Shown here piece after piece: positions 4,268 to 47,736 of a DNA stretch of 64,000 nucleotides (position 1 is its first letter; every line of letters begins with the position of its first letter). The stretch lies in assembly GCA_002794785.1 (NCBI GenBank), contig NBBA01000008.1:1-64000 (forward strand), written 5' to 3'. This stretch comes from Coniferiporia sulphurascens (lineage: Eukaryota; Basidiomycota; Agaricomycetes; Hymenochaetales; Hymenochaetaceae). A program made the translations under genes and the position numbers. The notes under the pieces were generated by a model. It made no database searches and was not told where the DNA came from. It was given only the letters and a program-made list of their open reading frames with translations.

Positions 4268-5256
4268 CTATTCCGCAGGACGCTGCGCATATACTATCCG
4301 AACTTTCTTTTCTGAACCTTTTGTCTCGTCCCACTCCTTCCCTAAAGCGTCGATGAGCCGATCAAATTCTTCCTCAGATTCGACGAAACCGAAACCCCCA
4401 GACTCGAGTATAGGAGTCTTCATAGCACGAAAGGCTAAAACAAGGTTGTCGCGTGCTTCTTCGCCTTGTTGCCCCGCCCACGCTCCAAGCGGAATCGATC
4501 GCGTTTCCACAGTGATATTAACAAATCCTGCTTTCCGAAGCAGCGAAGGGAGCTCATCGCTGACGTCGACCACGAGATCGCGAGATGCAAAAAGTGCTCG
4601 GCGTAGGCGAGCGTGCCTTTCGTTGATTGGTCCGGCATAATTATCCCCATATTCGCCAAGCTGAGCCCAGCCGCTCGGCTTGAGGACACGGAATATCTGA
4701 TTGATTGCTTGAGGCCATTCCGTTCGTTTGAGTGCACTAAACAGAAACCTCTGGTGGACAAAGTCAAATTTATTTGACCATTCTCCGGGAAGCGCTGTGA
4801 TTGAGTTGACCGAGAACGACATGTTCAAAGGGCGCGCCCTTGGGAAAAAAGTACTTTCAATGTCGATCCCATGCAGAATGGCTGACGGTGATAATTGGGA
4901 GGCTATATCTAGAAGCCATGCCGCTGTCAAGATAAGAAGTATTATGAAAAGTTCTTTAAAGACGATGAAAGGTCGCCAACGTACCGGTCCCAACGCCAGA
5001 ATCAAGCACAGCATAACCGGAGCCGCTCTTGAAAGGAGGAAGTAGAAGCCTGCCCTCGAACGCCCCCTTAAACACTTTATGCTGGAGTTCAAGCCTGGTG
5101 CGAGAGCATTTAGGACAATTCCGAACCACAAGTCAGACAGACGGACCTTTCGGCTTCTTGTTCGTCCACAGGAAGAATGTAATTGGAATCTGGGTCCTTG
5201 TGAAACACGCGAGGAATGTGCGGAATGGACCACGCCAAGCGGTCAGGTTCAGTCAT
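4268..5256 (-). CDS. SAM-dependent class I methyltransferase MT1 (291 aa)
   Basis: Complement of exons 5256..5147, 5094..4985, 4923..4268 (876 nt with TAG). The N-terminus carries the family block IPHIPRVF...NYILPVDEQEAERLELQHKVFK. Exon 2 ends in motif I (AVLDSGVGT, split by intron 2), completed by AAWLLDIASQ in exon 3. The acidic motif II is HGIDIE. SITALP and KFDFVHQR follow (post-motif segments), then RVLKPSGWAQLGE, the typical post-III strand. This is a complete Rossmann-fold methyltransferase binding S-adenosylmethionine. The acceptor substrate cannot be told; relatives in fungi are usually soluble small-molecule methyltransferases. Exon 2 is exactly 110 nt, as in the three paralogs (MT2-MT4), and introns sit at the same codons (phase 2 inside an Arg codon, phase 1 inside motif I). 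The ATG at 5256 aligns with the starts of the paralogs. Intact reading frame. Confidence 0.88.
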
Positions 5257-6451
5257 ACCTGAGGACACGGGAGAATCCATGTCTAGACGGAGTGTTATGG
5301 GGGGTGTTATGGGTCAACCCACGGACACGATTTTCGGCAGCTTAATTTATGCGAAGGCACTAGCAGATTGACTTAGAGGACCATGAGAACAGCCCAAAAT
5401 ATCTTGACTAGAAAGTCCTAATAAGTCTTATTCCGATTTCAGAACGACTAGTACCGAGAAGCCACCAGCTCCTTGAATCTTCTGTTCTTAGCAAACCTTA
5501 GTAGATCTATGCATGCTTCACCTTTGCGATGATATATCCTCCTTGAATATCTGGAACGAGCGTTTCTCAAGCATAGAGACCCAGAACCCTTTACTTGACA
5601 TTAGGCGTAAGGCCCTGGCAAGCAGCTTCAGATTCAAAAGTTCGCCAGTGGCGGAGAACTGCGTGATTGCGGGAATTTTGCGTATTTGGGTATGTTTACT
5701 TTCTACGGAAAGTCCCAGAAAGCCGAAAGTCCGAATAGTCAAACTCCGTTTTTGCGCGGATTTTGCATGTGAAGAGCGACTTCAATGGGGTCTTATACCG
5801 ATACTCAGAGTCGTGTAAGGTATTTCAGTCTACCAGCCTCATTTTAGCTCCTACATAGACTACGTGCAAGATCTATAATTTCTCACGAGCCATGGAACTC
5901 TGGAATCGCAGCTTCAAGTTAGAATACTCTCAGGGGAATATAAAGAACGGAAAAGGGATCAAAGCAACTCATAACCCTCATGTCTCATACACCAGATTCA
6001 AGGCCAAATGATCTCATCAGTACGCTTGTCTTCATTCTTGTAAATCAGATTCATTTCCGATCCCTTTTTAGGCAGACGTTCGAGTCAGTCACAACTCGAA
6101 AAGAGAGCCACGGCCCACAACTTTTCAGAATCACCACAGGTCTGCATGAATTCGCAGTCTGGCCAATCGATGTAAGTAATGAATGAAATCTGTGGTAGGA
6201 AAGTCTAATCTGGAAGCTTAAAGCTTGAATATCCGGGCCATCGTCTTATTAGCATTTTAAATTCAAAAGGCATGCCTTGTATCATCCAGTAACATGCATT
6301 AACTTTACGTTCGAAGAAGTTACGGCAGCATTTCTGTGACCTCCTGAAATCGGGAAGCATTTAACAAATTGACTCAGAGAAGCTCCACTAGAGCACTAGG
6401 TAGCCGGGTAAAGATTGTAAATTGTAAATAAAGTATGTGAATCTCGATAGT
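5257..6451. other. Intergenic region between MT1 and MT2
   Basis: About 1.2 kb holding the MT1 promoter side and the MT2 3' side. Both genes are on the minus strand and head-to-tail. No further gene or repeat was recognised. Confidence 0.5.
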
Positions 6452-7399
6452 CTAATCAACGGGACGCCGGGCGTACACTATCCGAACTTTCTTCTCTGCC
6501 CCTTTCGTCTCATCCCACTCCTTCCCTAGGGCGTCGATGAGCTGATCAAAATCTTCCTCGGACTCGACATATCCAAAACCCCCAGACTTTAGAATAGGAG
6601 TCTTCATGGCTCGGAAGACCGAGATGAAATTGTCGCGTGCTTCTACTCCTTGCTGTCCCGCCCACGCTCCAAGCGGAATCGACCGTGTCTCTACAGTGAT
6701 ACTAACAAACCCCGCCTTCCGGAGCAGCGAAGGGAGCTCATCGTAGACGTCGACCACGAGATCGCGGGATGCGAAAAGTGCTCGGCGTAAGCGAGCGTGC
6801 CTTTCGTTGATTGGTCCGGCATAATTGTCTCCAAATTCGCCGAGCTGTATCCAGCCACCCGGTTTAAGAACACGGTACATCTGGCCAAGTGCCTGCGTCC
6901 ACTCTGACTGCTTGAGCGCGGCCAATAATAACCTCTGATGAACAAAATCGAATTTTTCTGTCCATTCCTTGGGAAGTGCTGTGACTGAAGTGACCGAGAA
7001 GGACACGTTTAAAGGGCGAACTTGCGGGAAAAGTCGGCCCTCAATGTCGATCCCGTGCAGAATGGCCGACGGAGATATTTGAGAAGCGATGTCTAGCAGC
7101 CAGGCACCTGCCAAGAAACAATGAACAAACTAAAATATTCCCCTGCAAGAGTCTAGACGAACCTGTTCCAGAACCAGAGTCGAGTACGGCATAACTTGAA
7201 TCCTTCTTAAAAGGAGGAAGCAAAACTCTGTCTTCGAAGACCATTTTAAACAATTTGTGCTGAAGTGTTAGCCTGTGGAAGGGGACAATTCAGACACATA
7301 TCGAATCTCAAACCAGACAATCTGACCTCCTAGCCTCTTGTTCATCAGCAGGGAGAACATAGTTGGAACCAGGGTAATTATTGAATACTCGAGGGGAGT
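6452..7399 (-). pseudogene. Methyltransferase MT2, 3' part (exon 1 remainder, exons 2 and 3), split by LINE insertion
   Basis: Exon 3 is 7107..6452 (656 nt, the same length as in MT1), exon 2 7272..7163 (110 nt) and the retained part of exon 1 7386..7327. The reading frame is open and carries AVLDSGSGTG / AWLLDIASQ (motif I), HGIDIE (motif II), FDFVHQR and RVLKPGGWIQLGE. Exon 1 stops abruptly at an A-rich LINE tail beyond 7399. The missing start codon and first 24 residues are found 14.3 kb away at 21798-21728, still in frame. The 13-bp sequence ACTCGAGGGGAGT (7387-7399) is repeated at 21728-21740 as the target-site duplication. MT2 would have encoded 298 aa before insertion; apart from the insertion no stop or frameshift is visible, so loss is recent. 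The remaining part has no obvious promoter of its own. Confidence 0.9.
7387..7399. repeat. Target-site duplication of LINE-1 element (3' copy)
   Basis: ACTCGAGGGGAGT, identical to 21728-21740. It sits exactly at the break in MT2 exon 1 and directly next to the A-rich LINE 3' tail. Confidence 0.93.
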
Positions 7400-7589
7400 T
7401 TTTTTTATTTATTTTTTATTTATTTTTAATTCAGCATTTGTATACCGCTACATTACAAAGTAAAAGATGCGGATGTGAGACTATCGGAAGTGGAGTGTCA
7501 GAGGAGATTAACAAGATATGAAGTTTCTGGTTTTGATTCTACGAAAAAGGTATGAGGATTTTGTTTCTGAATTTTAAACGTATATGAGA

Positions 7590-8519
7590 TCAAGGTGGGA
7601 AGAAGCGAGAGATGGGTATTGGGTCATGAGCAGTAAAAGATTTAGTAAACGCGTTGGAAGAATTGAAAAAGGAAGCGAGTTTTTGAAGATATGATTCCTT
7701 GGTAAAAAGAATGTGGTCCGGAGGTGGAATGACGTTCCCGAATGCCTGAATGCGAGCGGATTTTAGAAGAGGACATCGACGAATAATGTGATCTCTGGTT
7801 TGTATGGGTGATCCGCATGGGCATGATATGAGTTCGGAGGGTACGAAACGCCGATAGTAGTCGCCAAAGTGGCCGTGTCCAGTAATAGCATGAAAGATGC
7901 GCAAGGATATGTCTCGAGGATAATAGAATTTTTTCCAAAATTGTGGTAGTTTCGAAGATGGTATTCCGGTTATGGTGTTGAATGACGCGGACTCCAATAT
8001 GTTTTTTGTATTTTGGATTTGGTGAGACCATGATGTGATAGCGCGCAAATTTATGTCTTCCTTCTCTCCTGCGTATGTTTTTAAAAGGAATGGACGGCCA
8101 ATTGGGGAAAAGTGCGTGAGATTGTCGGCGATGACGTTTCCGGGTATGTCGAGGTGACCTGGGGACCAATGAAGATGAATATGATGTCTGGTGTTGGAAG
8201 TAAATGTGTCTGTAAACTTGCGGAATATTTTGGAAGAGCATTGAGCCGCGTGAGGGGATAAGTCAAGAATGGCGGGGATACAAGAGGATGAATCGGAGAA
8301 GAAATGAATGTTGTTAATATGAGATGAAGAAAAGATGTGACGTTTACGAAAGAGAGAGATGCGTTCGGTACATTTTGCAAGAGCGTACATTTCTGCGTCG
8401 AACGATGAGCCTGAGGGAGAACAGTAGAAGTGGCCGAGATCAGCTACGAGACCATGATGATAGATAACGAATGAAGAAATGGTGGCGGATTTGTTGTTTT
8501 TGTAAGTTTTGGAACCATC
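7590..8519 (-). CDS. LINE-1 ORF2, 3' part: RNase H domain and C-terminus
   Basis: Begins at the chromovirus boundary with GAT GGT TCC (DGSK, the first catalytic Asp of RNase H) and continues through FDAEMYALAKC (catalytic Glu), FFSDSSS (Asp) and HLHWSPGHLDIPGNVIADN (the last Asp region). The C-terminus has the FHAITGHGHFGDYY...CPCGS....DHIIRRCPL zinc-like segment seen downstream of RNase H in Tad-like LINEs. Joined to 19162..16145 through the duplicated ACACC, the reading frame is continuous, 1316 codons with stop. Confidence 0.88.
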   Translation of the reverse strand, partial: DGSKTYKNNKSATISSFVIYHHGLVADLGHFYCSPSGSSFDAEMYALAKCTERISLFRKRHIFSSSHINNIHFFSDSSSCIPAILDLSPHAAQCSSKIFRKFTDTFTSNTRHHIHLHWSPGHLDIPGNVIADNLTHFSPIGRPFLLKTYAGEKEDINLRAITSWSHQIQNTKNILESASFNTITGIPSSKLPQFWKKFYYPRDISLRIFHAITGHGHFGDYYRRFVPSELISCPCGSPIQTRDHIIRRCPLLKSARIQAFGNVIPPPDHILFTKESYLQKLASFFNSSNAFTKSFTAHDPIPISRFFPP

Positions 8520-8524
8520 GGTGT
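8520..8524. repeat. 5-bp target-site duplication of the nested LTR element (left copy)
   Basis: GGTGT on the plus strand (ACACC in LINE sense), identical to 16145-16149, immediately outside the LTR ends. Confidence 0.93.
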
Positions 8525-9084
8525 TGTTAAGCTCAATGGTTACACGGTGATCGACGTTGGGGCTTCCTGATCATTGAGACTGATGGTACGGCAACGGGGC
8601 TTCCTAGATGTCGTAAGGCGGAGATGATCGGCGATGGGGCTTCCTAATCGGCGATGTGGATGAGGTAGGCTTCTTATAGCGAGTCGGGTTACGACGAAGC
8701 GACTTATAGCTAAGTGGCGCACAGTAGGCTGGTGGTAACAGATAATGGGCTTGTATGAACAAAGAGCACAAGCTTAGGGCTTGTGCTACTGAAGTTACAT
8801 GCTTATATGTTACTTTAGGTGTTTGTTACTGTAGCGACTTGGTTAGGTGTGTTTACCAGCCTTATAGAAGGTCCTGGAAACTCAAGGAATGCCTTGGTAA
8901 TACAAGTACGGTGATCAGTAAGCAAAGCACGTCATGATGGTGCAATAGGGCGTCATCATGGCGTCGTATGGTGTAAGGCGAATAAGGATGAGTAAGAGAG
9001 AGAAATGGGGGAGTTGCGCTGACTAATGACGATGAAGGGGAAGTGAGTCAGCGCAGGAAGGGTAAGTAAAGGAAAATTGTAACA
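8525..9084 (-). repeat. 3' LTR of the chromovirus (560 bp)
   Basis: Identical to 15585-16144 except at 8575, 8596, 8686 and 8790. It begins TGTTACAA and ends CTTAACA in element sense. A 60-codon open frame inside (8755-8937) is duplicated with the LTR and is not considered coding. Confidence 0.96.
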
Positions 9085-9097
9085 TTGCCTCCCATTT
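9085..9097 (-). promoter_or_regulatory. Polypurine tract before the 3' LTR
   Basis: In element sense AAATGGGAGGCAA abuts the TG of the 3' LTR. A purine-rich tract at this place is the usual primer for plus-strand DNA synthesis in LTR retroelements. Confidence 0.7.
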
Positions 9098-9554
9098 AGG
9101 ATCGACAAGTCACCGAATTGTCAATAAAAAAATAAAGTATAAGAGAAGAGAAAAAAAATCCAGGTGTATCAAGATGCCGACCAGACAGGTCTTTAAGTGT
9201 AATGTCTGGCTCACCGCAGAGTTTGTTGCCGCACTCTTTGGTACCTAATCCTGGTCTTTCACCAATATTAATGGTATAATGTCTTTACGACGGTGAAAAA
9301 GCGGAAAACTGATGCAAAAAGAATCCCTAACCCGGATTGCGAGTCATAGTAGCCTATAGGGCCAAGTGAAGGCCAATAAACGATAAGGAAAAGGCAAGCT
9401 GCCAATAAGGGCGATAACAAGCAGAGAAATGGGCGTAAGAAAAATGAAGAAAGGAAAACGCACTATCGGGCCTTTTAAGGTCGTACCCAGGAGTAGTAGT
9501 TTAGGGTCGTTGCGGACGCACGCTAGTTTACTGTCATTGCGGACTAGGAAACCC
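9098..9554. other. Non-coding part of the chromovirus before the 3' LTR
   Basis: Between the stop of the last 3' ORF (9555) and the polypurine tract. No conserved feature recognised. Confidence 0.5.
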
Positions 9555-10433
9555 TTAGTTCGAATGCTCGTCGTTGTTTGACCCCATGTCTATGTCATCG
9601 GGGTTGATCCCAGCCTCGACGTCGTCCATGTAGGCTTGCAGTAGTGCACGCGCTCCTAAATCGGATAGGTGTACCGTGCGTCTTCTGTTCGGGTCGTTGC
9701 GCTGTGGCGGCGGTCGGTTTTCGTCGTTGTCGGTCACTTGCTCCTGTCCGTGTTGTGGACATTCCCCGGGAGGATGACGAGGTGCTGCCTTTTTGCACCA
9801 AGGACACGTATATTGTACGCAATACGTGGTGAGGTGTGCGGGTGAGAGGCATGCTGAGCAGTGAGTGCGGGATGATGACGGTGATGACTCTTGAGAGTGC
9901 GACGTAATGATTACTGGGAGTGGTTCCGTCTGAGTGGCCGAATTTTGTCGAGTGACCGCGGGGGACGAGGGAACCGTTTGGACGAGAGGTGGAACAGGTG
10001 TGGGGCGGTAAAGATGTGCCTGAGGGTGAAGGGGGATGAGTACTTGGTGTATACCTTCCTCCTCTAGTGCCTCGTAGTCCGTGTTTCGTAGCAATCTGAG
10101 ATCGTCGACAAGATTACTGAGGCGGGAGTCTAGCATCTCCGTTATCTCCTGTGCGTGCCATGCCAAGCGTTGCATGTCCTCCACTGTCCGTAGGCGTTGT
10201 CGCATCCGGTTGACTTGGTGGGCTCGGGGGTGAGATGCGAGGAGACGACTGACGTCGGCGTCCAGGTCTGGGGCTGCCAGTACGTGCTGGAGGATGGTAC
10301 GTGGGAGGAGGGGTGCGGTGTGGCGGCTCGAGTTCTGTGTCGGGTACCGGCGTCGTGTTGCCATGTGGTGTCGGCGACGGTACTCTGCGCTGGTGCCGCT
10401 GTTCCTGGAGTTGGGCTGCGAGTGCGAGTTCAT
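9555..10433 (-). CDS. Chromovirus extra 3' ORF, distal part: helical segment plus two zinc knuckles
   Basis: Lies between the end of pol and the 3' LTR, the position env takes in other elements. The frame contains a helical stretch (RTILQHVLAAPDLDADVSRL followed by HQVNRMRQRLRTVEDMQRL and EITEMLDSRLSNLVDDLRLL) and two CCHC-type motifs: CSACLSPAHLTTYC (C-x2-C-x4-H-x4-C) and CPWCKKAAPRHPPGEC (C-x2-C-x5-H-x4-C). The first 30 or so residues from the ATG at 10433 are probably a shadow of the upstream frame. The true protein probably continues from the 10869-10114 frame through a frameshift (or an undetected intron) near 10310-10400. No envelope, protease or polymerase motifs are present. Function unknown; a nucleic-acid-binding role is inferred from the knuckles. 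Confidence 0.55.
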   Translation of the reverse strand: MNSHSQPNSRNSGTSAEYRRRHHMATRRRYPTQNSSRHTAPLLPRTILQHVLAAPDLDADVSRLLASHPRAHQVNRMRQRLRTVEDMQRLAWHAQEITEMLDSRLSNLVDDLRLLRNTDYEALEEEGIHQVLIPLHPQAHLYRPTPVPPLVQTVPSSPAVTRQNSATQTEPLPVIITSHSQESSPSSSRTHCSACLSPAHLTTYCVQYTCPWCKKAAPRHPPGECPQHGQEQVTDNDENRPPPQRNDPNRRRTVHLSDLGARALLQAYMDDVEAGINPDDIDMGSNNDEHSN

Positions 10434-10869
10434 GGTAGATTACCGCTTGATCGTGTAAATTGGCGAGGTGAAGGAGTAGATCAACCGATGGTGGATCGGA
10501 TTGACTTAGCTGGTTTTCGAGACCTTCGATCTCAAATTCGATCTCGGTGAGATCCGCGGGTTGAATGAAGTCCGCAGGAAAGGTGCGCCGGAGCTGTTCT
10601 ATTACGTCTCGGCGAGTAGGTTGGGATCTACGGGGTTGGTATTCTTGGTGTTGGACTTCGATCGGGGGATTTTGGATTGGCAGGGTTGGAGAGAGTGGTC
10701 GATGGTTTGCGACGGTGGGATATCGGATGTGAGACGTTGAGGAAGGATTTCTGTGGCGGCGGTGACTAATGGTTGAGGTGATTGCACAGACAAATACGAA
10801 TAAGCCTGTAGGGATTGCTATGGCAAGGTACCACAGGTGTTCGTTGTTGGTGATATAGGCAGTGGGCAT
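10114..10869 (-). CDS. Chromovirus extra 3' ORF, proximal part: N-terminal membrane segment
   Basis: Starts 33 bases after the pol stop. The N-terminus has one strong hydrophobic stretch (HLWYLAIAIPTGLFVFVCAI) followed by a basic stop-transfer RRHR, as in a single-pass membrane anchor. Then comes a helical region (DVIEQLRRTFPADFIQPADL, TEIEFEIEGLENQL, LLLHLANLHDQAVIYHELAL). After about residue 160 the frame becomes Pro/Thr-rich and looks non-native, while the +1 frame (9555-10433) becomes structured, so the two are probably one gene with a frameshift. The membrane segment plus zinc knuckles is unusual. I do not recognise the family. Confidence 0.5.
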   Translation of the reverse strand: MPTAYITNNEHLWYLAIAIPTGLFVFVCAITSTISHRRHRNPSSTSHIRYPTVANHRPLSPTLPIQNPPIEVQHQEYQPRRSQPTRRDVIEQLRRTFPADFIQPADLTEIEFEIEGLENQLSQSDPPSVDLLLHLANLHDQAVIYHELALAAQLQEQRHQRRVPSPTPHGNTTPVPDTELEPPHRTPPPTYHPPARTGSPRPGRRRQSSPRISPPSPPSQPDATTPTDSGGHATLGMARTGDNGDARLPPQ

Positions 10870-10902
10870 GTGGTTGACAAGGTGAGTGGGGTAAAGAATT
10901 TG

Positions 10903-13790
10903 TTATGTGATTTTTTTGAGGTTTTTATACTTTTCTAGGATGTTAGAAGCATGTGAGAGATCTTTCTCGGTAAGCCATTGGTTTTCGGAAGACGGGTATC
11001 CGTTCCACTTGACTAGGAAACGCCGTCGGTTTCCGGCGCCCTTGTGTGAAATGATTGCCTCGATTTCGTATTCCTGCTGACCTTCGATCAGATCGGGCGG
11101 TGGTTGACTGAATGGCGGTCCGTGTGTGTCGGTCTCCGAATACGCCGAAAGAAGCGAGGCGTGGAAAACGGGGTGAATGCGCCATGCCTCGGGTAATTTG
11201 AGGCGATAGTTCAGAGGTGATAGTACCTGAGCTATGGGAAATGGTCCTTCTCGTTTGGGCGATAATTTGCGGGATCGGTTGGGAAAACGTAGGTTAGTGG
11301 CTTCTAACCAAACTTTATCCCCAAGTTTGAATGGTCGGAAGCCTCGTGTTCCAAAACGTGCCATGTGAACCCGGGCTAGGTCATGAGCCGCTAGCGCTTC
11401 TTTTCTGATTGATGAAAGAAGGCGTAGTCGTTGTGAGAGAGAGGGAAGATCTGTTTCCTCTATTACCGCGGGGATGGGTATAGGGTTGTATCCAAGCATG
11501 ATGGTGAATGGTGAAGTTTTGGTGACTGAATGGGTCTGAATATTGTGTGAGAATTCTAGGTCCGTGATTGAGTCAGTCCATGAATGAGGCGATGTGCCGC
11601 AATAGATGCACAGATAGGCCTCTACTTCCTGGTTGGTACGTTCGGTTTGTCCATCAGTTTGAGGGTGATACGCCGTTGACAGTTTGGATTTAATACCGAG
11701 GCGTTTGCATAGGGTTTGGAATACCTGTGATGCGAACTGTGGTCCCCTGTCCGATATGATTCGCTTAGGAAGTCCGAAACGTCGGTAGACGTTATCGTGA
11801 TAACATTTTGCCGTTCCCAGTGCGTCAATTGTCTTGTGGCATGGGATGAGAACTATCCCTTTCGAGGAGTCGTGATCCACGACTACCATGATTGAGTTGT
11901 ATCCCTTGGACTCGGGCAAGTCTGTGATGAAATCCATGGATACTGACTGGAATGGAAGCATTGATGCGTCTGCCGGTATCGGAAGGATGGGAGGTTTGGT
12001 TGGGTGTGTGTTAATTTTCATCTGTTGACATGCCGCGCAGCCTTTGACGTAATTTCCTACGAACACAGTTAATCCTGGCCACCAATAGTGCTGTCGCACT
12101 AGTTGTGTCGTTTTGAAAGTTCCCGGGTGTCCGAATGATGGTAGATCATGAAACATTTGTAGAATTTCCCGTTTGATTTCCATGTTGTCAGGTATATAGA
12201 CCCTTTTTTTGTAACGTAGAAGGCCAGAATCGACTGTCCAGTCGTTAAGTGAGGATCGGAATGGAGACGGGATTTTTAGTGCTCGTGCATCTTGTATTGT
12301 TTTTGTAAACGAATCCCCTTCTTGGGCGTCTCGAATGCGATTTTGGAGGTCCGAGTTAATGGTTCCGATAAACAAGGTTTTGGGGAGCATAATCCGTTCC
12401 TCCAGTGGTTCTTCGCCGTGGTCGGGTCGTCGGGATAGTGCGTCAGCGCCCGGAATGGACTTTCCTGGTTGGTGTGTGATTACGCAGTTGAACTGGGATA
12501 AGAAGAGATTCCATCGTGACTGTCTTGGTGTTAAGCGCCGTTCCGACCTAAAGTAAGATAGGTTTTTATGATCACACCAGATTGTGGTAGTGTGCAGGTT
12601 TCCGAGTAAGTAATGGCGCCATGTTTCGAGGCCTCGTATAATTCCTAGCAGTTCTCTGTCATATACTTCATAGCGCTGTTGGGCTGGGCCGAACGTTTCT
12701 GAAATGTAGCCACATGGTTGTAGATCACCATTAGAATTTGCCTGATATAGTACCGCTCCAGAAGCTACTTTAGATGCGTCCGTTTCGAGGATAAACGGTT
12801 TGGTAGGGTCAGGTACCAGTAGTGCCGGTTTGTTTAGGAAAAGTGTTTTGAGTTTTCTAAATGCTTGATCTCGTTCAGGTGTCCATTTCCATTGTTCGGT
12901 GGTACGTGTAAGTTCATTGAGAGGGTAGACGACGTCCGAGAAGCTGGGGATAAACCGTCTATAGTAGTTACAGAAACCCATGAAGCTTCGAAGTTGTTTG
13001 ACTGATTGCGGAATAGGCCAATCGGCGATTCCCGCTAATTTGACTGGATCCATGTGGATGTTGTCTGGGGTAATGATCATTCCCAAAAATTCAACGTGTT
13101 GTACTCCAAATAAGCATTTCTCCGGTTTGCAATAAAGATCATTGGCTGCACATATGTCAAGTACGCGACAAGTGCGTTGATGAAGTTCTTCCATGGAGTT
13201 GGCTGGGATGAGGACGTCGTCCATGTAAATCAATGTTCCGTCCTCGAGGATTGCGAAGCGGAAAGTGTCGTCCATGAATGCTTGGAACGTGGCTGGTGAG
13301 TTGCATAGTCCGAAAAACATGACCGTTGGTTCAAATAGTCCTCGTGGGGTTTTAAACGCGGCTTTCCACTGGTCACCGTTTTTGATTCGAATGTTGTTGT
13401 ACCCAGACCGGAGGTCGAGTTTCGTGAAGTATTTGGCCCCTTTGAGTTTATCCATTAGGTCGCTGATTAGTGGTAGTGGGTACGCGTTTTTGATGGTTCC
13501 CTCGTTAAGTGCACGGTAATCTTGGCATCCTCGTAAGCTGGTATCCTTCTTTCCGACAAAGAAGAAAGGCGATGCCATGGGTGATTTGGACGGACGAATG
13601 TATCCTTTTCGTAGGTTTTCGTCTAAAAATTCATCCAGTGCTGCCAGTTCTTTGGGTGCTAATGGGTAAACTTTGCAGTCTCGTGGTATAAAATCCGGCT
13701 TGAGATCAATTGCGTGGTCATATGCTCTCGAGATTGGAAATCGTTCTGCCGTTTTTTTGCGAAAAATGTCGAGGTATCGATGATATTCGG
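10903..13790 (-). CDS. pol: Chromovirus pol: reverse transcriptase, RNase H, integrase, chromodomain
   Basis: The open frame begins just after the 5-C run (13793-13789) with EYHRYLDIFRKK and YDHAIDLKPDFIPRDC. Reverse transcriptase has FTKLDLRSGYNNI, FGLCNSPATFQ and catalytic YMDD. RNase H has LETDASKVASGA, YDRELLGI and WCDHKNL. Integrase has the HHCC region (FGHPGTFKTTQLVRQHY...CAACQ) and the DD35E core (SMDFITDLPES, ISDRGPQFAS, DGQTERTNQEVEAY). The C-terminus carries a chromodomain (YEIEAIISHKGAGNRRRFLV then KWNGYPSSENQWLTEKDL), which targets chromoviruses to chromatin marks. An internal ATG at 13578 is not the real start. Expressed as a Gag-Pol fusion by the -1 shift at 14291-14297. Only the upstream frameshift separates it from protease. 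Confidence 0.93.
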
Positions 13791-14291
13791 GGGTATCATC
13801 TGTTCCACAGGTTTTGTTTCTTTAACCTGTTCTTGGGCGAGCGAAGTAGCCGTGGTGATTTTTGCCATGGTGAGGGTGCCTTTCTGCCAGTTGATGATCG
13901 GGTTGTGGTTTTTTAGCCAAGGTAGACCCAGGATGACGTCTTCCTTTCCTAACGACGTTACTAGAAGTTTTAGGGGAAGGGATTTTCCTTCGATGCGGGT
14001 TAATCTCCAAGTGTACTGGGTGATAGTTCCGTGTTCGTTGGTGGATCCATCCGCATTAAGGATTGTAATGGGACGGGCTAATTCTCGCGTGGGTATGCGA
14101 TGTTTGATTACGAACTTGGCATCGATGAATTGGCCTTCTGCGCCAGAATCGATGAGCGCCGTTGTAGGGACGGTTTTGTCAAAAACAATTATAGAAATTG
14201 GGATCTTCATTGCAGGGAGTGAGGGATCTGAATTTACAATTGGAGACATTGTAATAGGAAGACTTAGCGTCCGTCTAAGCTTCCTCTTTAA
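13659..14291 (-). CDS. Chromovirus pol, protease part (frameshifted before reverse transcriptase)
   Basis: This frame is entered by a -1 shift at the gag stop and runs through the aspartic protease active site TALIDSGAEGQFID and the second conserved segment VILGLPWLKNHNP. After MIPP the native frame moves to the other register (EYHRYLDIF), because the C-run at 13793-13789 has five instead of six cytosines. The residual frame ends at 13659. The loss of one base is either a real mutation or a homopolymer error, since the element is otherwise young. Confidence 0.85.
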   Translation of the reverse strand, partial: LKRKLRRTLSLPITMSPIVNSDPSLPAMKIPISIIVFDKTVPTTALIDSGAEGQFIDAKFVIKHRIPTRELARPITILNADGSTNEHGTITQYTWRLTRIEGKSLPLKLLVTSLGKEDVILGLPWLKNHNPIINWQKGTLTMAKITTATSLAQEQVKETKPVEQMIPPNIIDTSTFFAKKRQNDFQSREHMTTQLISSRILYHETAKFTH

Positions 14292-15526
14292 AAACCCTGT
14301 TTGTCCAGAATGTCAAAGATTTCGTCTTTCTTTGTTTCGTCGAATTGGTTCAGTAGGTTTCGTATGCTGGCTGCGACTGCCCCAGGAGCTTGGTCTGTAG
14401 ATGCTGGTTCCGGCGTTTCGATGATTGGAAATGCGTTGTCAATCGTGCAGACCGTTCGCTGTTGGTACTTGGTGCAATCGCGTGCGTTGTGACCTTTCTC
14501 TCTACACGCCAGGCATCGTCCTTCACGCATGCACTTTGCTCGTTCTTCTTCTGATAAGCGCGGGGGACGACCGGTGGTTGTTCCTTGTGTCGTGCGTTGG
14601 TTCGGCTGATAGGGTCGGCGCTGTTGATTATTTCCTAGATTACGGAAACGGTTTTCTTGTTTAATGGGGGCTGGCCCCGGGCCACGAAGGGCCTTGAGTC
14701 GTTGGTAGACGGCGTCTTGTTTGGATGCTTCTCGGTACCACTCCTCGATGGTGGAGGGCGTTTTGGTGCTTGCTAGTACTCGTGATAGTAGGCCGTGTTT
14801 TAAACCTTTCTCGTAGATGGGAATGAGGTTATTGTCTCCAGACATTCCTGCTCGTGTGACAAGAGATTGGAAGCGACTATTATAGTCGTCAGCAGATCCC
14901 GTTTGCTGAAGAGTCATGATTTCTTGGGATGCTTCGGCAACGTCATCTGTGGTGATGAATGTGTTGCGGAAGTCGCATTTAAAATCGCTCCATGTGCCAT
15001 ATCCCACCATAGTGTTGAGGATCTTGCCCGTTGTATCTTTGACCAAGGCTGATGCAAGGGTTTCCCGGTTGATGGCCCAATCTCCAGCAGTCCCTGTCTG
15101 CATGTATGAGAGTACGAAGTTGATTTTTAGTTCTTCCGTGGTGTAGATGTGTCGGTTGATATGGAGATATGCTTCGCAGCTGGATAAAAAGCGGCGGGCG
15201 TATTTTCGATTGCCATCAAACGTGTTGGGGCGAGCAAGGTTTATTTCTTTTGGTGTTGGTGTTGATGACATTGGTGGTGGAGTTTGGGTTTTTGGGAAGA
15301 TTGTGCGGTAGTTAGGTACGTTTTGGAGGAAGGTAGTGCTGGCGTCTTCGGCGTCGTTGGCTTTGAACCACTGGAAATCTCCGTTGGTGTTTTCTAACCA
15401 CGAGTAATAGTCGTAGTCGTTTGAGTTGGGTTGCTTTTTCTTATAGCACTTGAGGTCGTGGTCCCAAGTTCCTCCGATGAGGGGGTAAACGGGCTGTGGA
15501 ATGGCTAGTTTCGACAGGTTGGGCAA
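14288..15526 (-). CDS. gag: Chromovirus Gag polyprotein (412 aa)
   Basis: The retrotransposon Gag capsid region contains TFDGNRKYARRFLSSCEAYL, WAINRETLA and DDYNSRFQSLVTRAGM, followed by a basic nucleocapsid tail with one CCHC zinc knuckle CLACREKGHNARDC. The ORF ends KQGF-TAA. The last sense codons form the slippery heptamer G-GGT-TTT, which moves ribosomes into the protease frame. It starts 59 bases after the 5' LTR. Packages the element RNA into virus-like particles in the cytoplasm. Confidence 0.92.
   Translation of the reverse strand: MPNLSKLAIPQPVYPLIGGTWDHDLKCYKKKQPNSNDYDYYSWLENTNGDFQWFKANDAEDASTTFLQNVPNYRTIFPKTQTPPPMSSTPTPKEINLARPNTFDGNRKYARRFLSSCEAYLHINRHIYTTEELKINFVLSYMQTGTAGDWAINRETLASALVKDTTGKILNTMVGYGTWSDFKCDFRNTFITTDDVAEASQEIMTLQQTGSADDYNSRFQSLVTRAGMSGDNNLIPIYEKGLKHGLLSRVLASTKTPSTIEEWYREASKQDAVYQRLKALRGPGPAPIKQENRFRNLGNNQQRRPYQPNQRTTQGTTTGRPPRLSEEERAKCMREGRCLACREKGHNARDCTKYQQRTVCTIDNAFPIIETPEPASTDQAPGAVAASIRNLLNQFDETKKDEIFDILDKQGF
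14291..14297 (-). promoter_or_regulatory. -1 ribosomal frameshift site GGGTTTT at the gag stop
   Basis: In gag frame the codons are CAG GGT TTT TAA. G GGT TTT matches the X-XXY-YYZ rule. Slipping back one base gives TTA AAG AGG, exactly the open frame leading into protease without a stop. Downstream stimulatory structure was not assessed. Confidence 0.8.
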
Positions 15527-15571
15527 AGGGGTGGTGCTTGGACGTTGGATACGTCAGCAAAAAATTTGGGA

Positions 15572-15582
15572 AAGCTTGTGCT
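15572..15582 (-). promoter_or_regulatory. Primer-binding site for self-priming (AGCACAAGCTT in element sense)
   Basis: Two bases after the 5' LTR. It does not match the 3' end of a tRNA (no TGG). Instead it is an 11-base perfect complement to AAGCTTGTGCT at 15835-15825, the predicted 5' end of the element's own transcript. This is the arrangement known from Tf1. Confidence 0.78.
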
Positions 15583-15584
15583 AG

Positions 15585-16144
15585 TGTTAAGCTCAATGGT
15601 TACACGGTGATCGACGTTGGGGCTTCCTGATCATCGAGACTGATGGTACGGCAACAGGGCTTCCTAGATGTCGTAAGGCGGAGATGATCGGCGATGGGGC
15701 TTCCTAATCGGCGATGTGGATGAGGTAGGCTTCTTATAGCGAGTCAGGTTACGACGAAGCGACTTATAGCTAAGTGGCGCACAGTAGGCTGGTGGTAACA
15801 GATAATGGGCTTGTATGAACAAAGAGCACAAGCTTAGGGCTTGTGCTACCGAAGTTACATGCTTATATGTTACTTTAGGTGTTTGTTACTGTAGCGACTT
15901 GGTTAGGTGTGTTTACCAGCCTTATAGAAGGTCCTGGAAACTCAAGGAATGCCTTGGTAATACAAGTACGGTGATCAGTAAGCAAAGCACGTCATGATGG
16001 TGCAATAGGGCGTCATCATGGCGTCGTATGGTGTAAGGCGAATAAGGATGAGTAAGAGAGAGAAATGGGGGAGTTGCGCTGACTAATGACGATGAAGGGG
16101 AAGTGAGTCAGCGCAGGAAGGGTAAGTAAAGGAAAATTGTAACA
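15585..16144 (-). repeat. 5' LTR of the chromovirus (560 bp)
   Basis: Pairs with 8525-9084. In element sense a TATAAG (about 15867-15862) lies 32 bases before the predicted transcript start at about 15835, so U3 is about 309 bp. The first 11 bases of the predicted R region are the self-primer. All four mismatches with the 3' LTR lie in CpG contexts. Confidence 0.96.
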
Positions 16145-16149
16145 GGTGT
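16145..16149. repeat. 5-bp target-site duplication of the nested LTR element (right copy)
   Basis: GGTGT, identical to 8520-8524. Confidence 0.93.
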
Positions 16150-19100
16150 AAACTATTAAATTGTGAATATTTTTTGATAAAGAATCGTGTAAAAGGATAA
16201 TTTTGTTTTTTTGGAAATTTTTTCGATCCGAGGAAGATGTGCCAGAATCAAGGAAATAGGAAAGGGGTTGATAGTGGTATTGAGATGAATTAGACGGGAG
16301 ATGTTGAGACGGATGAGCGAGATATGGTTGAATATGTTCGATACGTGGGTCTGAAAGAAAAGCGAGGCGATGTAGTTGAGTTTTTGGTTTGGCGGAAGTG
16401 GAATGATGTCGGGAGCTAATAGGTGGTTTAGAAGATGGAAGACGAGGCCATGATGACGGAAGGCGATTAAGAAGTTGCGAATTGAGAGGTAGGCGGTTGA
16501 GACGAAGGGCGGTAGATTGATTATGTTTTTGAAGAAGTATTGGAATAGGGAGAATATGTGCGATGCGGTGAAGCGCGTGAGACGGTGTTGTGCGAAAAGT
16601 TCCTGTAAGAAGGCGTAGGCTTTGATTTTGAGCGACGCTCATTTTATTGATTTTGGAATGTTGTCGAATTCCGGTAAACCAGAGTTGGAAGCCGTATGTG
16701 AGGACAGGGAGAATGTTGGCGAAATGTAGCGTACGAAAGTTGGCGAATGAGAGACCACGAATGGTGTTTCCGAGTATGCGTAAGGCCATGGTGGTTGAGC
16801 GTGCTCTCATGCACATGCGATGGATGTGATCGTTAAAGTTGAGTCGTTGATCAAGATAGAAACCGAGCCATCTAATAACTGGAGAAGGCGTAATGGTGAT
16901 TGAGGGACCATGGATGTTAGGGAGAACGATGGAAGGAAAAGAGGGTGGAGAGAAACCGTGTCTGATGAAATGAATAAGATCGGATTTTAAATGGTCTACG
17001 GAGAGTTGAATGTCGTTAAGTTTGTTAGAAATGATAATAAAAGCTTTTTTAAGGATGCAAATGTTTTCTTGATACGAATCGGAATAAACTAGGATAAGTT
17101 GATCATCGACGTAGGCTTTGAGGCAGGTGTTTGAAGAAAAATTGAAGGAATCAAGTATGAATGCGGTATAAATGGTAGATAGTATTGGGGAAATGGGAGA
17201 GCCTTGTGGAATGCCGACGTTATGAATTGGTTTTTGGTCTGAAATGAAATTGTCAATTTTAAAGGATATATGACGATCAGATAGAAAAGCTTGTGTCCAA
17301 AGAATAATTTTTTCGTCGAAGCCTAGAAGATGAAGAGAATGTAAAAGACGAGCGTGGTTAACATTATCAAAATATCCTTTTATATCGATAGCCAATGCTG
17401 ATACGAATAGTTTCTTCTTGTGGGCGATCTGAATGTCGTGAATAAGAGATAGGCCTGCGTCGATGGTGCAAGAATTTGAACGGCCCCCGAATTGAATGGT
17501 AGAAACAAGATTATAACGTCCGATATCCCACGTAAGGCGTTTGGCGATGACTTTTTCCATGATTTTTCCTATGCATTCAAGGAGAGCGATGGGGCGGTAA
17601 GATCTAGGATTACTAGAGTCGGTTTTGTTAGGTTTAGGAATTAGTACAATGTTAGCATTTTTCCATGGGTGAATATGACGAGAAAAACATTCGTTGAATA
17701 AATCGAGTAAAATAGAAGGATATACTGAATTGACCCATTTAACGTAAGCGTAGGAAATATTCGAAATGCCTGGTGCCGAGTTATTGTGAGTGAGGTTAAG
17801 GCAAGAATCGATTTCATTTTGCGTGATACGTGGTGATGATCGAGTTGGTTTCTTAGGCGGGTCATCAGGAAGAGCGGTGACGTTTGGTTTTGGATTATTT
17901 GAGAAAAAGGATTGATGAAAGACGTCCGCTTGTTCTTTTGGTGAATGTACAAACTGATCTTGGTATAGAATAGGTGGGGTGCGTGTTTTTCGTTTTCTGG
18001 ATGACCATTTGGCATAGCGATAAATGTCGTAAGATGACGCTCCTTCGAGAACGGATGTCGCCCAGGATTGTTTGGCTTTTTTGAAAATGAGGCGAGCTTC
18101 TTTGTGTAAATGTTCTTTTTCGAAATTTTCGGAGCAGTCCCGGAATGCACGGATAGCTTGAGCGCATTCGTCATTCCACCAGTATGAATATGAAAAGGTT
18201 ACTGACGACGTTTGAGGCATGATTTCGGAAGTTGTTAGTAATATTTTTTCGGAAAGTTTGTTAGTATAATCGTAAACGGATTCGTTAGACGTAATAATGG
18301 GAAGCGGTTGGTTATCGAGGTGAAAACTGAATTTTTCGATCCATTCTTTCTTGCGATCTGGGTCATATTTGTATGAGATGGTTGGTTCGTCAGGCTGGAA
18401 GTCAGTGTTAATAGGAAGAAATGCGAGAGTAATTGGAATATGGTCAGATGAATATGCTGCCATATCGACGCAGGTCCAATCAAAAAAGAAATCGGTGAGG
18501 ATGGCTGAGAAATTGAGAAGCGTAAGATCGATGATTGAATCAGCTTGTTTGTGTTGTCCTTTTCTAGTCGGGAAATCGGTGTCGTTAAGGATAAATAGTG
18601 ATTGATCTTGAGTCCACGTTAGGAAATTTTCGGCGTCTGCAGATATACGACGATTGGCTGTATTCGGGAGGCCCCATTCTGAGTGGTGTAAATTGAAGTC
18701 GCCCATAACGCATGTCGGAATGTCGTATTCAAGATCAATGTCAGTAAGGAAACGAACGTTGTCGCCTAAAATCCCTGGTCCGTAATTGTAGCCGTTAATA
18801 AGGCGGAAAGTTTTATTTAAATAGGTGACGTCGATAGTCATGAAGTCTTTGTGGTTCGTTATGTCTTGACGAGAAATGGCTGATAAATGTGGGAAGGATT
18901 TCCTGACGTAAGTAATAACGTGAGGTTTAATTGGAGAGTTAGTGTCGTAAGACGGAATGAAATAATCCCAGGACGGGTGTTTAATAGGAAGAAAGATAGG
19001 AGTTCCCTCCGGATTAGAATCAGAGCGATTAAGACCAGAAAAACCGATAAAGGGTTCTTGAAGAACGAGAATGTGTAGGTTGGGATTGTTGAGAAGTCGT

Positions 19101-19162
19101 GTAGTACGGGGTCCGCTTTTTGCTACGTTGAGCTGAAGAATGCGTAGGGCCATATGATTCAT
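16145..19162 (-). CDS. LINE-1 ORF2, 5' part: AP endonuclease and reverse transcriptase
   Basis: Starts MNHMALRILQLNVAKSG, with endonuclease motifs LQLNVAKS, VLQEPFIG, CVMGDFNLHHSEWG and SSDHIPITL of the exonuclease-endonuclease-phosphatase fold. Reverse transcriptase follows: IVLIPKPNK, NPRSYRPIALLECIGKIMEK, GIPQGSPISPILS and the catalytic AYVDDQLILV. It breaks at TAC ACC, where the chromovirus begins; the next residues DGSK lie at 8519. The start ATG overlaps the ORF1 stop by four bases (ATGA), which suggests coupled termination and reinitiation. No stop within the 1006 codons. Confidence 0.93.
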
Positions 19163-21531
19163 AAGGTGTCATCGTGAACTGAAGTGTGCGGGTCGACGTG
19201 CATGGAAGACAAAGAAGGTTGAGCAGAAGACGGGTTAGTAAATAAGTTATGTCGTGACGGGTGGACGTTAATAAGGTTCGGGTTAGTAATAGAAGGTGAC
19301 GGTGGTGACGAGAGCGTCATTCGAACTGGTGCAGGAAAGCGATTATAATATAGCGCCCTTTGAGGACAGTCTATGGAGTCGGCTGGGTGAGCACCTGAAC
19401 AGTTGACACAGTAAAAGTGATCGCAAGGCTGGTTATCTTGGTATCAAGCACTAGAGCATCCCGAACACATTTCCTGATGTTGAGAAGTAAGGTGACGTTT
19501 GGAGGCGCAGTATCGGCATCCGAGAGGTTGATTGCACTGAATAGTAAGATGACCGAATTTCCAACATTTGGTACATTGGGAGAAACGCAGTTTGGGTTTC
19601 CATTCGACGGGAACCGTGGATTGGCCGAAAATGAAAAATACTGAGGAGGTAACTTTGCGTAGGAGGTCACCGTTGGGGTCTTCGAAAGCGAAAGAAATTG
19701 ATGATCGAGATTTAGTGATAAATTCCGGGTTACGTGCCCAACGAGGAGGTTGAGTAATTTTGAGAGTGCGGAATAAATCGTTAAGAAGAAGAGATCGGAG
19801 TATTTCGAGTTCAGTAAAGATTGGCATATTGGGCCCGTTTGACATAATGATATTGCTGATAATGACTTTGGACCATTTGGTGTCACGGGTGATTGTAAGA
19901 GGATGGTTTGGGCGTAATTCGAATGCTTCCTTGAGGATCGGAATAATAGTGTTAATGGAGTTAATGGAAATGTTACTAGGGAACGAAAAAATGCAGTTTC
20001 CAGCCATGTTCCAATCCGCGCCAATGATCCGAATGTGTCTAGCCGTAGGGATGCGATCCAGTTTCAGTTGTATACGATCAATGAGGGTCTTGGAATTTGG
20101 TCTGATAGATAAGGGGATATTCTGGCCTTGGAATCGCGCCACGTAACGTGTGAGAGTCGAAATGGACGCAGGAGCCAACGGTAGGAGTTTAGGTTGGTTC
20201 GCTGGCATATTGAGCCCGAGGTGATCTTTGTATGAGAGTGAGCTGATGGGCTGGTTGACGATAGGGTTTCGTAGAAGAACTGGTGACGGGGTGCGTTGAC
20301 GAGGGCCAAGAGGACGAGGTCGAGATATGTTTTCGTGTTGAATGATAGGTTGAACGAATCCATGGCTGACGTTATCTGGTTCTATATCGTTATCAGAAAA
20401 AGAAACATGTCGAGTGTCGTGAGCTACTGCGGGAGTCGTGTTACGATTAGAGTGGGTTTCCATGATGGCCACTGTTTCTTCTAATTGAATAATTCTAGTA
20501 GCTAGACGAGCTTCAAGATCTTGTGCGAGTTTTTTGTTTTGTTCCTGAAGCGTAGACTGAAAATTGTTGAACATGTCCGAAAGGGATGAAGTGTTGATTT
20601 CTGGTGATTTTTCGGAATGAATCGGTAGGTCGTCGTCGTCATCATAAGCGTTATCGTGCATAGAGTCCGGAAAAAGGATTGGATTTTTAACTTTAAAGTC
20701 AAACTGACCCGATTCGTCGATGGTGATTTTTTGATAAATGATGGGAGTCTTGGGGTCAGCGGGATGAATAACAGAGACCTTGGTATTGGAAGGAACGAAA
20801 TGAAGATGAAAAAGTTGAATGGCGTTGGCAAGTGAGTTCATGGAGTGATCCGTAAGATGTTGATTATATTTAGAAGGCCAGGTTTTCGCTATGAGATTGA
20901 GAATCTGTTTGATAGAGAGAGTCCATTCTTCGAAAGAGCCAGGGGCAAGTATATTTTCGATCGCATTCCGAGTTTCGGAAATGATAATTTGATCCTCGAT
21001 GTTAGACTCGTCTGGTGATGGAGTGAATCGAAGACGACGTTGTGTGTGTGTGAGAGTTTCGGGAGAAGATGATGAATGTGACTGAATGGAAGACTGATGT
21101 GACATGATAGGGGCTTGTGTGTGTGAGAGGGCCGTTTGACTCGTGTTGGAAGGGGAGGCTGCTTGAAGGAGAGACTGAGAGTCGAGGGGAAAGACGACGT
21201 CCATAGGAGTGGCCACCGGGGCTGCAAGAGTGATATCTGAGTAATTGGCATAGGTGGTTGAGAAATCTTGGAAGTGAGCATTGAAAGAGGGATCTTGAGA
21301 GGTTGGCATAGATAGAACGGAAGGTGTTTGAGACGACGGTAAGATTTGCTGATATCCTATTATATCGATTTTTTCGTTGTTTTCTGGGTTTTCTTTTGGT
21401 GGAGACGGAAGAGGGCGAGGTGGAGAGTGCGATGCTGGAATGTTAGGCGATTGAGAGTTGTAAAGGTGCATTTCGTCTGGGGTGTTTGCGAAGGTCTGGC
21501 TACTGAAAGAAGGGTTAGGAGAATTCGCCAT
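19159..21531 (-). CDS. LINE-1 ORF1: Gag-like RNA-binding protein with zinc knuckles and one internal stop
   Basis: Element start MANSPNPSFSSQ at 21531. The protein is Ser/Pro/Thr-rich, then has an EEWTLSIKQILNLIAKTWPS helical segment, a basic region and zinc knuckles CTKCWKFGHLTIQC and CRYCASKRHLTSQHQEMC. An in-frame TGA at 19446-19444 follows CSGCSSA. Beyond it the same frame stays open for 94 codons and holds a third knuckle (CDHFYCVNCSGAHPADSIDC), ending TTA TGA at 19159. The TGA is most simply a CGA arginine codon changed at a CpG. The chimeric upstream frame running back to 21837 comes from the interrupted host exon, not from the element. Confidence 0.85.
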
Positions 21532-21727
21532 GGGGGAAAGAAAAATAAAGGGGTTAGGGGGAGTGGGGGATGGGAAGTGAGGATGGTAAAAGTTGAGTGA
21601 AAAACAGCTCGACGAGTGTCTACTGTGAGGGAGACAGGTGTGGGTGGTTAACCCAGAGACTTTAGGGGCGGCGAAAGTGGCTGTGCTGAGGGTTAGATGG
21701 TGGTGGTCAGAGGTCAAGGGGTTGTTG

Positions 21728-21740
21728 ACTCGAGGGGAGT
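21728..21740. repeat. Target-site duplication of LINE-1 element (5' copy)
   Basis: ACTCGAGGGGAGT, same as 7387-7399. It lies between the LINE 5' end and the displaced MT2 start exon. Confidence 0.93.
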
Positions 21741-21798
21741 GCGGTATGGGTGGCAGGGCGGAAGCCGACTCGCCCACTCTTGAGGGTATTTTCGACAT
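21728..21798 (-). pseudogene. Methyltransferase MT2, displaced 5' end of exon 1 (start codon)
   Basis: ATG at 21798 opens MSKIPSRVGESASALPPIPH, then SPRV, which aligns with the MT4 start (MSNPVNAQTAAP...IPHTSRAF) and the MT1 block IPHIPRVF. It continues exactly at 7386 once the LINE and one duplication copy are removed. In its present place the same frame runs without a stop straight into the LINE 5' UTR and ORF1. Confidence 0.9.
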
Positions 21799-23145: not shown

Positions 23146-24171
23146 TCATGTGAGCGATGGCATGGGTCGCTGAGCATATACGATGTGGGCCTCAATCTCA
23201 GCACCCTCTGTCTCGTCCCACTCCTTTTCCAAGGAATCGAGAAGCCGGTCAAAATCCTCCTCTGTGCCGACAAAACCAAGCCCACCAGATTGGAGGACGG
23301 GTGTCTTCATGGCGCGAAAGACGGAGATAAGGTTGTCCCGAGCATCAATACCCTGTTGACCCCCCCATACGCCTAATGGAATAGCGCGTTTCTCGACCTT
23401 GACATTGATGAACCCCGCCTCATCTAACAGTCTAGGCAAATCCGCATAGATGTCAAGGTGAAGGTTGCGGGAATCAAAAAGCGCACGGTGCATGACTGCG
23501 TGCTTTCTGTTTACGGGCCCTGCATGCCAGCTGCCGAACTCGCCCAGTTGGACCCAGCCCCCGGGGCTGAGGACCCGGAACATCTGCTTGAGCGCTACCG
23601 GCCACTCGTCCCGTTTGAGTGCGGCCATAAGCAATCGCTGGTGAACGAAGTCGAATTTGTTTGACCATTCTTCTGGCAGTGCCGTCACGGAAGCTATCGA
23701 GAACGAGATATTCGAGGGATACGAGGGCGGGAAAAGCCTACTCTCGATATCAATGCCATGGAGTATAGCCGTCGGGGACAGCCGCGAACAGACATCCAAG
23801 AGCCAGGCGGCTTTTTGTCCGCGTCCTTAATATCAGCAGGAGCTTATGGCACGATTTCATGTATTTTTTTAGCTCACCGGCTCCTGCACCGGAATCGAGA
23901 ACGAAGTAGCTTGACTGGTCCTTGAATGGGGGCAACAGCACTCGACCTTCGAAGGCAGCTTTCAGCACCTTATGCTGCAGCCTCAGCCTGAAAATTATAT
24001 TCAGTATGACGTCCATATATCGTCCGTAAGAATAAGGTGTAACCTTTTTGCCTCTTCTTCATCCGAAGGCAATATGTACGTTGCTCCTGGATAATTGGTG
24101 AAAGGTCTGGAGACATGAGGTATGGACAATGGCGCGAGCCCTGTTTCTGAGACAACCGTACCCGACATCAT
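23146..24171 (-). CDS. SAM-dependent class I methyltransferase MT3 (300 aa)
   Basis: Complement of exons 24171..24044 (128 nt), 23987..23878 (110 nt), 23810..23146 (665 nt), 301 codons with stop. N-terminal block LSIPHVSRPFTNYPGATYIL, then KVLKAAFEGRVLLPPFK, motif I VLDSGAGA plus AWLLDVCS, motif II HGIDIES, FDFVHQRLL, and RVLSPGGWVQLGEFG. Two ATGs in tandem (24171 and 24168) could both start; paralogs favour a single Met before Ser. It is closer to MT4 than to MT1/MT2 in the visible motifs (DVCS, EEWSNKFDFVHQRLL, GGLGFVGTEEDFD). Substrate unknown. The reading frame is intact. Confidence 0.88.
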
Positions 24172-41291: not shown

Positions 41292-41353
41292 TTAAAAAAA
41301 AAAAAAAATGCATTTCTATAGTGCATCATAACTATCTAGTACAAAATATGCTC

Positions 41354-41373
41354 CAGGGGCCTTTAGGCCCCTG
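41354..41373 (-). other. Perfect stem-loop in the LINE-2 3' UTR
   Basis: CAGGGGCC and GGCCCCTG form an 8-bp stem around a 4-base loop, about 60 bases from the element 3' end. 3' stem-loops are bound by the reverse transcriptase in several LINEs; this role is inferred here. Confidence 0.6.
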
Positions 41374-41480
41374 TATTGAGTGAGATGGTAGTTGTTATAA
41401 AGGGTACAATAGTCGTGGGATGCCATAAGCAGAGAAGGGGGCTACCGAAAGGGTAGCGACATAAGAAGGGGGTGTCCCGC

Positions 41481-47676: not shown

Positions 47677-47736
47677 AGAGGGCAGAGTGCTCGTAAAGAC
47701 TACCTAGATGGTGGTGGTTAGAGGACAAGGAGGATG

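Follow-up and report, generated by a model that had tools for sequence, protein, structure and literature searches.

The methyltransferase gene MT2 of Coniferiporia sulphurascens is interrupted in exon 1 by an insert of 14,328 bp (7400-21727), a 6.7-kb LINE with an A-rich tail that is itself split by a chromodomain LTR retrotransposon (chromovirus) of 7,620 bp (8525-16144). We consider it almost certain that an ancestral gene cluster received the LINE and then the chromovirus, and that MT2 was disrupted in this way; loss of MT2 function presumably followed. The outcome is a lineage-specific gene disruption, resolved to the base, in a small cluster whose uninterrupted gene is kept in the sister species C. 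weirii. As an ordinary gene disruption by transposons, it adds a new and well-documented case to a known class of events and overturns nothing. Coniferiporia belongs to the Hymenochaetaceae, and an excerpt of one paper names it among important tree pathogens (PMC10410303). Among titles and abstracts on Coniferiporia/Phellinidium, fungal LINEs, LTR dating and LaeA-like methyltransferases, we found none that deals with the MT2 locus.

The window, that is, the whole stretch of 64,000 bases analysed here, comprises bases 1-64000 of contig 8. The genome searched consists of 39,347,566 bases in 31 contigs, and this one assembly underlies the junctions described below (Table 1).

Table 1. Features of the methyltransferase cluster and of the nested insertions (window positions)
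Feature	Position	Strand	Description	Basis
MT1	4268..5280	-	intact class I SAM methyltransferase; exons 5280-5147, 5094-4985, 4923-4268	splice search against C. weirii orthologue P0002
MT2 3' part	6452..7386	-	rest of exon 1 7386-7327, exon 2 7272-7163, exon 3 7107-6452	alignment to paralogues and C. weirii P0001
Target-site duplication, downstream copy, 13 bp	7387..7399	-	exact match with 21728-21740	
LINE 3' part	7400..8519	-	ORF2 C-terminal part from the YTDGSK site, 3' UTR, A-rich tail	sequence and relatives
GGTGT duplication, one copy	8520..8524	-		
3' LTR of chromovirus, 560 bp	8525..9084	-		
Chromovirus internal region	9085..15584	-	gag-like 14288-15553, protease 13659-14312, RT/RNase H/integrase/chromodomain 10903-13821	Pfam
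5' LTR of chromovirus, 560 bp	15585..16144	-	4 differences from 3' LTR, all CpG transitions	
GGTGT duplication, other copy	16145..16149	-		
LINE ORF2, endonuclease and RT part	16150..19168	-	stop-to-stop frame 16016-19168 continues into the LTR	PF14529 53.1 bits (cut-off 27.4), PF00078 99.4 bits (cut-off 29.6)
LINE ORF1 (gag-like)	19444..21531	-	695 codons, early end in cysteine-knuckle region	
LINE 5' UTR	21532..21727	-	ORF1 frame open back into MT2	
Target-site duplication, upstream copy, 13 bp	21728..21740	-	exact match with 7387-7399	
MT2 5' part	21741..21798	-	start codon at 21798 and first 58 nt of exon 1	same alignments as MT2 3' part
MT3	23146..24168	-	intact paralogue; exons 24168-24044, 23987-23878, 23810-23146	splice search
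MT4	61419..62434	+	intact paralogue; exons 61419-61546, 61601-61710, 61782-62434	alignment

MT2, its paralogues and its orthologue

The window contains four related methyltransferase genes, of which MT4 is on the plus strand and the other three, MT1 to MT3, are on the minus strand. All four share intron phases 2 and 1, and exon 2 measures 110 nt throughout; in MT1, MT2, MT3 and MT4, respectively, exon 1 measures 134, 131 (58, 13 and 60 added), 125 and 128 nt, and exon 3 measures 656, 656, 665 and 653 nt. MT2 reads in the order 58 nt of exon 1, the 13-bp repeat, the insert, 60 nt of exon 1, exon 2 and exon 3, and its two parts, kept apart, align collinearly with MT1, MT3 and MT4. An earlier, sequence-only reading of this DNA held that excising 7400-21727 and one copy of the 13-bp repeat yields a three-exon gene with the exon lengths and phases of its paralogues. 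The phases do match, but the lengths differ (125-134 nt for exon 1, 653-665 nt for exon 3).

The frame of MT2 exon 3 matches the Pfam methyltransferase domain PF13649 with 35.1 bits (cut-off 27), and the C. weirii orthologue of MT2 does so with 47.9 bits. MT1-MT4 are predicted class I SAM-dependent methyltransferases; the nearest solved structure to an MT protein is 3mgg, a weak match (E 3.2e-05). Elsewhere in the assembly, related methyltransferase genes form two more clusters, one of three genes at C21:566774-598321 and one of two at C9:1746902-1750123. A truncated copy of the MT1 5' region, 634 bp long and 96.4% identical, lies on a different contig (C7:1276019-1276652, positions 4520-5153 of locus L068) and corresponds to window 4778-5410, from the upstream flank into the beginning of exon 3.

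Searching with the protein of MT2 exon 3 returned three C. weirii proteins, M0805_009487 (P0001), M0805_009486 (P0002) and M0805_009488 (P0003), at 90, 82 and 66% identity. M0805_009487 has 295 residues and is continuous across the MT2 break point; the MT2 3' part is identical to it at 245 of 274 residues and has no stop before its end. The neighbouring genes behave alike, MT1 being identical to P0002 at 278 of 299 residues and MT3 to P0003 at 255 of 295. The tree joins the MT2 3' part to P0001 (support 97/96) and MT1 to P0002 (100/99), and it places MT3, MT4 and M0805_009488 together in a supported group, with no firm order inside it. The three C. weirii genes have consecutive locus numbers, and the longest contig given for each is 26,236 bases; from these equal values and the numbering we infer that they lie on one contig. 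M0805_009487 is protein evidence for the empty site, which in C. weirii is known from proteins and not from DNA.

An independent, complete MT2 elsewhere in the genome had been named as one observation that would overturn the sequence-only reading. We looked for one in the assembly and found none, either by DNA (seven matches, the best after MT2 being MT1 at 76%) or by protein (ten matches, the best other one again MT1, at 82%). The upstream flank (21741-23100) matched only itself in the assembly, and no second allele was found.

The nested insertions

Two copies of the 13-mer ACTCGAGGGGAGT are present in the window, at 7387 and 21728, with none on its other strand; by arithmetic, a 13-base match at two prescribed places has a chance of about 1.5e-8 (4^-13). 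The insert is oriented like MT2 and runs from the LINE 5' end to the A-rich tail. That MT2 is split in exon 1 at single-base precision, as had been proposed, is borne out by this exact repeat and by the alignment of both parts to the paralogues and to the uninterrupted C. weirii protein.

Across the genome, a first look gave 126 candidates for LINE 3' ends and 104 for LINE 5' ends. Forty matches were scored for each end and 30 loci fetched, which for the 5' end include the window's own and for the 3' end comprise 29 besides the window. All 30 of the 5' ends fetched carry CCCCTTG within a few bases of their start. Among 28 pairings of 5' and 3' ends, one cross-pairing of two neighbouring copies (which shows a 15-base match) was dropped; 24 of the remaining 27 have an exact duplication of 11-16 bases, the window's 13 included, and the other three show 10, 7 and 9. 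Since the pairings mostly show duplications of 11-16 bases, the outer insertion is typical of its LINE family. Such variable-length target-site duplications and the A-rich 3' end, together with an endonuclease and a reverse transcriptase (RT) in one ORF, are the features of an APE-type LINE. In this best-scoring sample, a 5' end lies at the expected distance from at least 27 of the 30 fetched 3' ends, so that full-length copies dominate, hinting that many copies of the family are full length. Many full-length copies are unusual for LINEs. At C8:605066-618445 (L024, L053, L034, L063) two LINE copies stand head to tail, with the related target sequence GACCGGCCA at their borders.

For the inner insertion, the LINE pieces flanking the chromovirus were mapped on the relatives separately, without joining them, and they overlap by exactly 5 bases in 29 of the 29 other LINE 3' loci fetched (40 matches scored). 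This upholds the proposal that removing 8525-16144 and one GGTGT restores LINE ORF2 through YTDGSK. The LTRs have TG...CA ends and are 99.29% identical, and Pfam recognises gag, protease, RT, RNase H, integrase, a Tf2-1-like SH3 domain and a chromodomain (PF00385, 43.4 bits against a cut-off of 25.1, residues 918-967 of the pol frame), which identifies the element as a chromovirus. LTR matches of the same family also occur in other LINE loci: three in one LINE-like stretch of L069 (C1:2183000-2190000), and one each in L033 and L020. The L069 LTR nearest the window's (96%) lies between two copies of AGTTC, as expected of a solo LTR. A preference of the chromovirus for LINE targets was considered and dropped, the evidence from these three loci being anecdotal.

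In the history that we propose, the MT1-MT2-MT3 cluster would predate the split of C. sulphurascens and C. weirii. A full-length LINE would then have entered MT2 exon 1 in the C. sulphurascens lineage by target-primed reverse transcription, landing 58-71 nt from the start codon in the orientation of MT2, making the 13-bp duplication and leaving an A-rich tail. Later, the integrase of the chromovirus would have put that element into the LINE's RNase H-like region at the YT/DGSK codons, with a 5-bp duplication. After these events MT2 would be unable to make its normal protein. The enzymatic steps in this account follow the known mechanisms of the two families.

Order, age and fate of the locus

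The sequence-only reading had also proposed a dated order of gene, LINE and chromovirus. The relative order stands, as the nested duplications require it and the C. weirii orthologue is uninterrupted; the dating does not, no calibrated rate having been found. The further claim, that MT2, LINE ORF2 and the LTRs are otherwise nearly intact, holds for LINE ORF2, apart from its split, and for the MT2 remains; ORF1 is broken: at least 780 codons long in 19 of 29 relatives (one runs off its locus), it stops after 695 in the window copy, as it does at the same codon in the copy L048.

Recency of the insertions, also claimed, is plausible, but with unequal support: it agrees with the 4 differences in 560 LTR positions and with the absence of an amino-acid excess in MT2, while the support for a young LINE is only moderate. 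The four LTR differences are without exception CpG transitions, and no non-CpG site differs; CpG makes up 10.4% of LTR positions, and four of four would fall there by chance with a probability of 1.2e-4. In repeats of another agaricomycete, Marasmius oreades, the methylated fraction of reads per CpG site is about 0.75, according to a passage of PMC9674265. The LTR differences likely stem from deamination of methylated CpG. Because all four are CpG transitions, an LTR clock that is not corrected for CpG would probably overstate the age of the chromovirus, a warning that LTR dating may mislead in C. sulphurascens. A second, different LINE at window 41305-47703, with endonuclease, RT and RNase H frames, has a CpG observed/expected ratio of 0.66, against 1.04 for the whole window, as if it were older or more methylated.

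For MT2 itself, amino-acid changes polarised by the two MT1 proteins number 8, against 12 for the orthologue in C. weirii; when the outgroup consists of all five other proteins, the count is 2 against 2. The comparison lineages give 3 against 2 for MT1 and 3 against 10 for MT3, and the tree branch lengths are 0.068 for MT2 and 0.049 for its orthologue. In nt 271-390 of MT2 exon 3 (window about 6837-6718), the identity of MT1 and MT2 is 92-95% when taken in 60-bp steps, against 79.7% for exon 3 overall, one identical run measures 36 bp, and several MT2 residues there agree with MT1 and not with C. weirii MT2. This pattern suggests that the stretch may have been converted from MT1. Some of the 12 changes on the C. 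weirii side fall in it.

How old the LINE is deserves separate weighing. Among the copies scored, the highest identity to it is 85% for the 3' part and 83% for the 5' part, a distance of about 15% or more from anything related in the genome, and with so remote a nearest relative 'recent' does not follow from family similarity. Together with the premature stop in ORF1 and with private changes that are not among the fewest, this distance favours a LINE insertion that is comparatively old, although younger than the split from C. weirii, and would leave only the chromovirus recent. We regard such an old insertion as unlikely. Nearest-neighbour distances are similarly large across the family (5.5-17.3% in the C-terminal piece, 7.5-18.4% in the middle, 10.1-21.5% in ORF1), yet over the 805 ORF2 codons of the two stretches examined 13 of 29 relatives have no stop and 16 only 1-3, so that the distance would come largely from lineages under selection; the window copy has none. 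Its private changes at sites conserved in at least 80% of copies amount to about 1% (9/688, 8/1,032 and 13/1,327 in three pieces, 30/3,047 in all), a rough upper bound on change since insertion, for it also counts what arose in the source lineage; variable sites are disregarded. The share in other copies is 0 to 2.0%, a range that takes in the window's. Of the 30 changes, 20 are nonsynonymous and 10 synonymous, and the simulated neutral ratio is about 2.6. Frame-breaking gaps in ORF2 are uninformative, as every row, the window's included, has at least one. Dating by family divergence was dropped, since all copies sampled differ by 5-22% from their nearest relative and have few stops; CpG decay was dropped as a LINE clock as well, the window's 12.0, 15.1 and 20.8% of decayed majority CpGs (three pieces) lying within the range of other copies.

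The structure could in principle be an assembly artefact in which unrelated repeat copies were placed inside a single-copy gene, each element being a member of a repeat family (40 LINE 3' matches, 40 of 126 candidates having been scored, and 44 LTR matches, 40 of 945 scored). A false join would not, however, produce exact duplications of 13 bp in the host and 5 bp in the LINE at the right bases, and long reads should separate copies whose closest counterparts, among those scored, are 85% identical (LINE 3' part) and 96% (LTR outside the element); we find this explanation hardly credible. It is also improbable, if somewhat less so, that MT2 still yields a shortened methyltransferase, starting from a methionine in exon 2 and driven either by a cryptic promoter or from the 3' end of the LINE. 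The 3' part is free of premature stops, and its amino-acid changes are not in excess (the 8 against 12 above); an exon 2 position that is alanine in C. weirii MT2 is methionine here; and the Pfam methyltransferase matches of the C. weirii orthologue all lie downstream of the break, none starting before residue 45. Such a protein would nevertheless lack the conserved YVLPADEQEARRL stretch; the LINE tail has stops in the frame of the exon 1 remainder, with no in-frame start between the last of them and the end of that remainder; and a recent insertion explains the intactness of the 3' part without selection.

At the other border, the stop-to-stop frame 19444-21840 runs without a stop through the MT2 start codon, the duplication, the LINE 5' UTR and ORF1; from the ATG at 21798 it counts, by arithmetic, 784 codons (23 MT2 codons, the LINE 5' UTR and ORF1). 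The 5' UTR is open to its 5' end in 5 of 30 copies, the window's among them, and with one third of insertions meeting in frame such a junction is expected by chance in about 5%, or about 1 in 20. Chance is probably the cause. That the LINE captured the host promoter and start codon, giving a predicted fusion of a methyltransferase leader with the LINE gag, seems to us very improbable.

Relation to known genes and elements

The MT genes resemble Agaricomycetes class I SAM methyltransferases (Methyltransf_25/23) in having a Pfam match above the cut-off, and their named relatives come from Hymenochaetales, Mycena and other Agaricomycetes.

The LINE may be akin to the fungal Tad1-like group, with its APE-type endonuclease and two ORFs. 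Both share ORF1 and an ORF2 with endonuclease and RT, an A-rich tail, duplications mostly of 11-16 bp and an RNase H-like motif after the RT. The RNase H domain itself stays below the Pfam cut-off here: the uninterrupted relative L009 scores 17.3 bits against 25.8, and the window piece has no Pfam RNase H match, its YTDGSK motif having been seen by eye.

The chromovirus presumably belongs near the Tf1/sushi-like, self-priming subgroup of chromodomain Ty3/Gypsy elements. It is like them in its TG...CA LTRs, 5-bp duplication, set of domains and LTR-complementary site. The last consists of 11 bases (window 15572-15582) that start two bases inside the 5' LTR border and are complementary to LTR position 310, found in a search of offsets 0-4 of the 25 bases adjoining the LTR; as a candidate self-priming primer site, it fits what is expected of a Tf1/sushi-like element. 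Unlike in that subgroup, gag, protease and RT-integrase here occupy three separate frames, and an extra frame of 262 aa (10114-10902), without a Pfam match, follows in the same frame after the pol stop.
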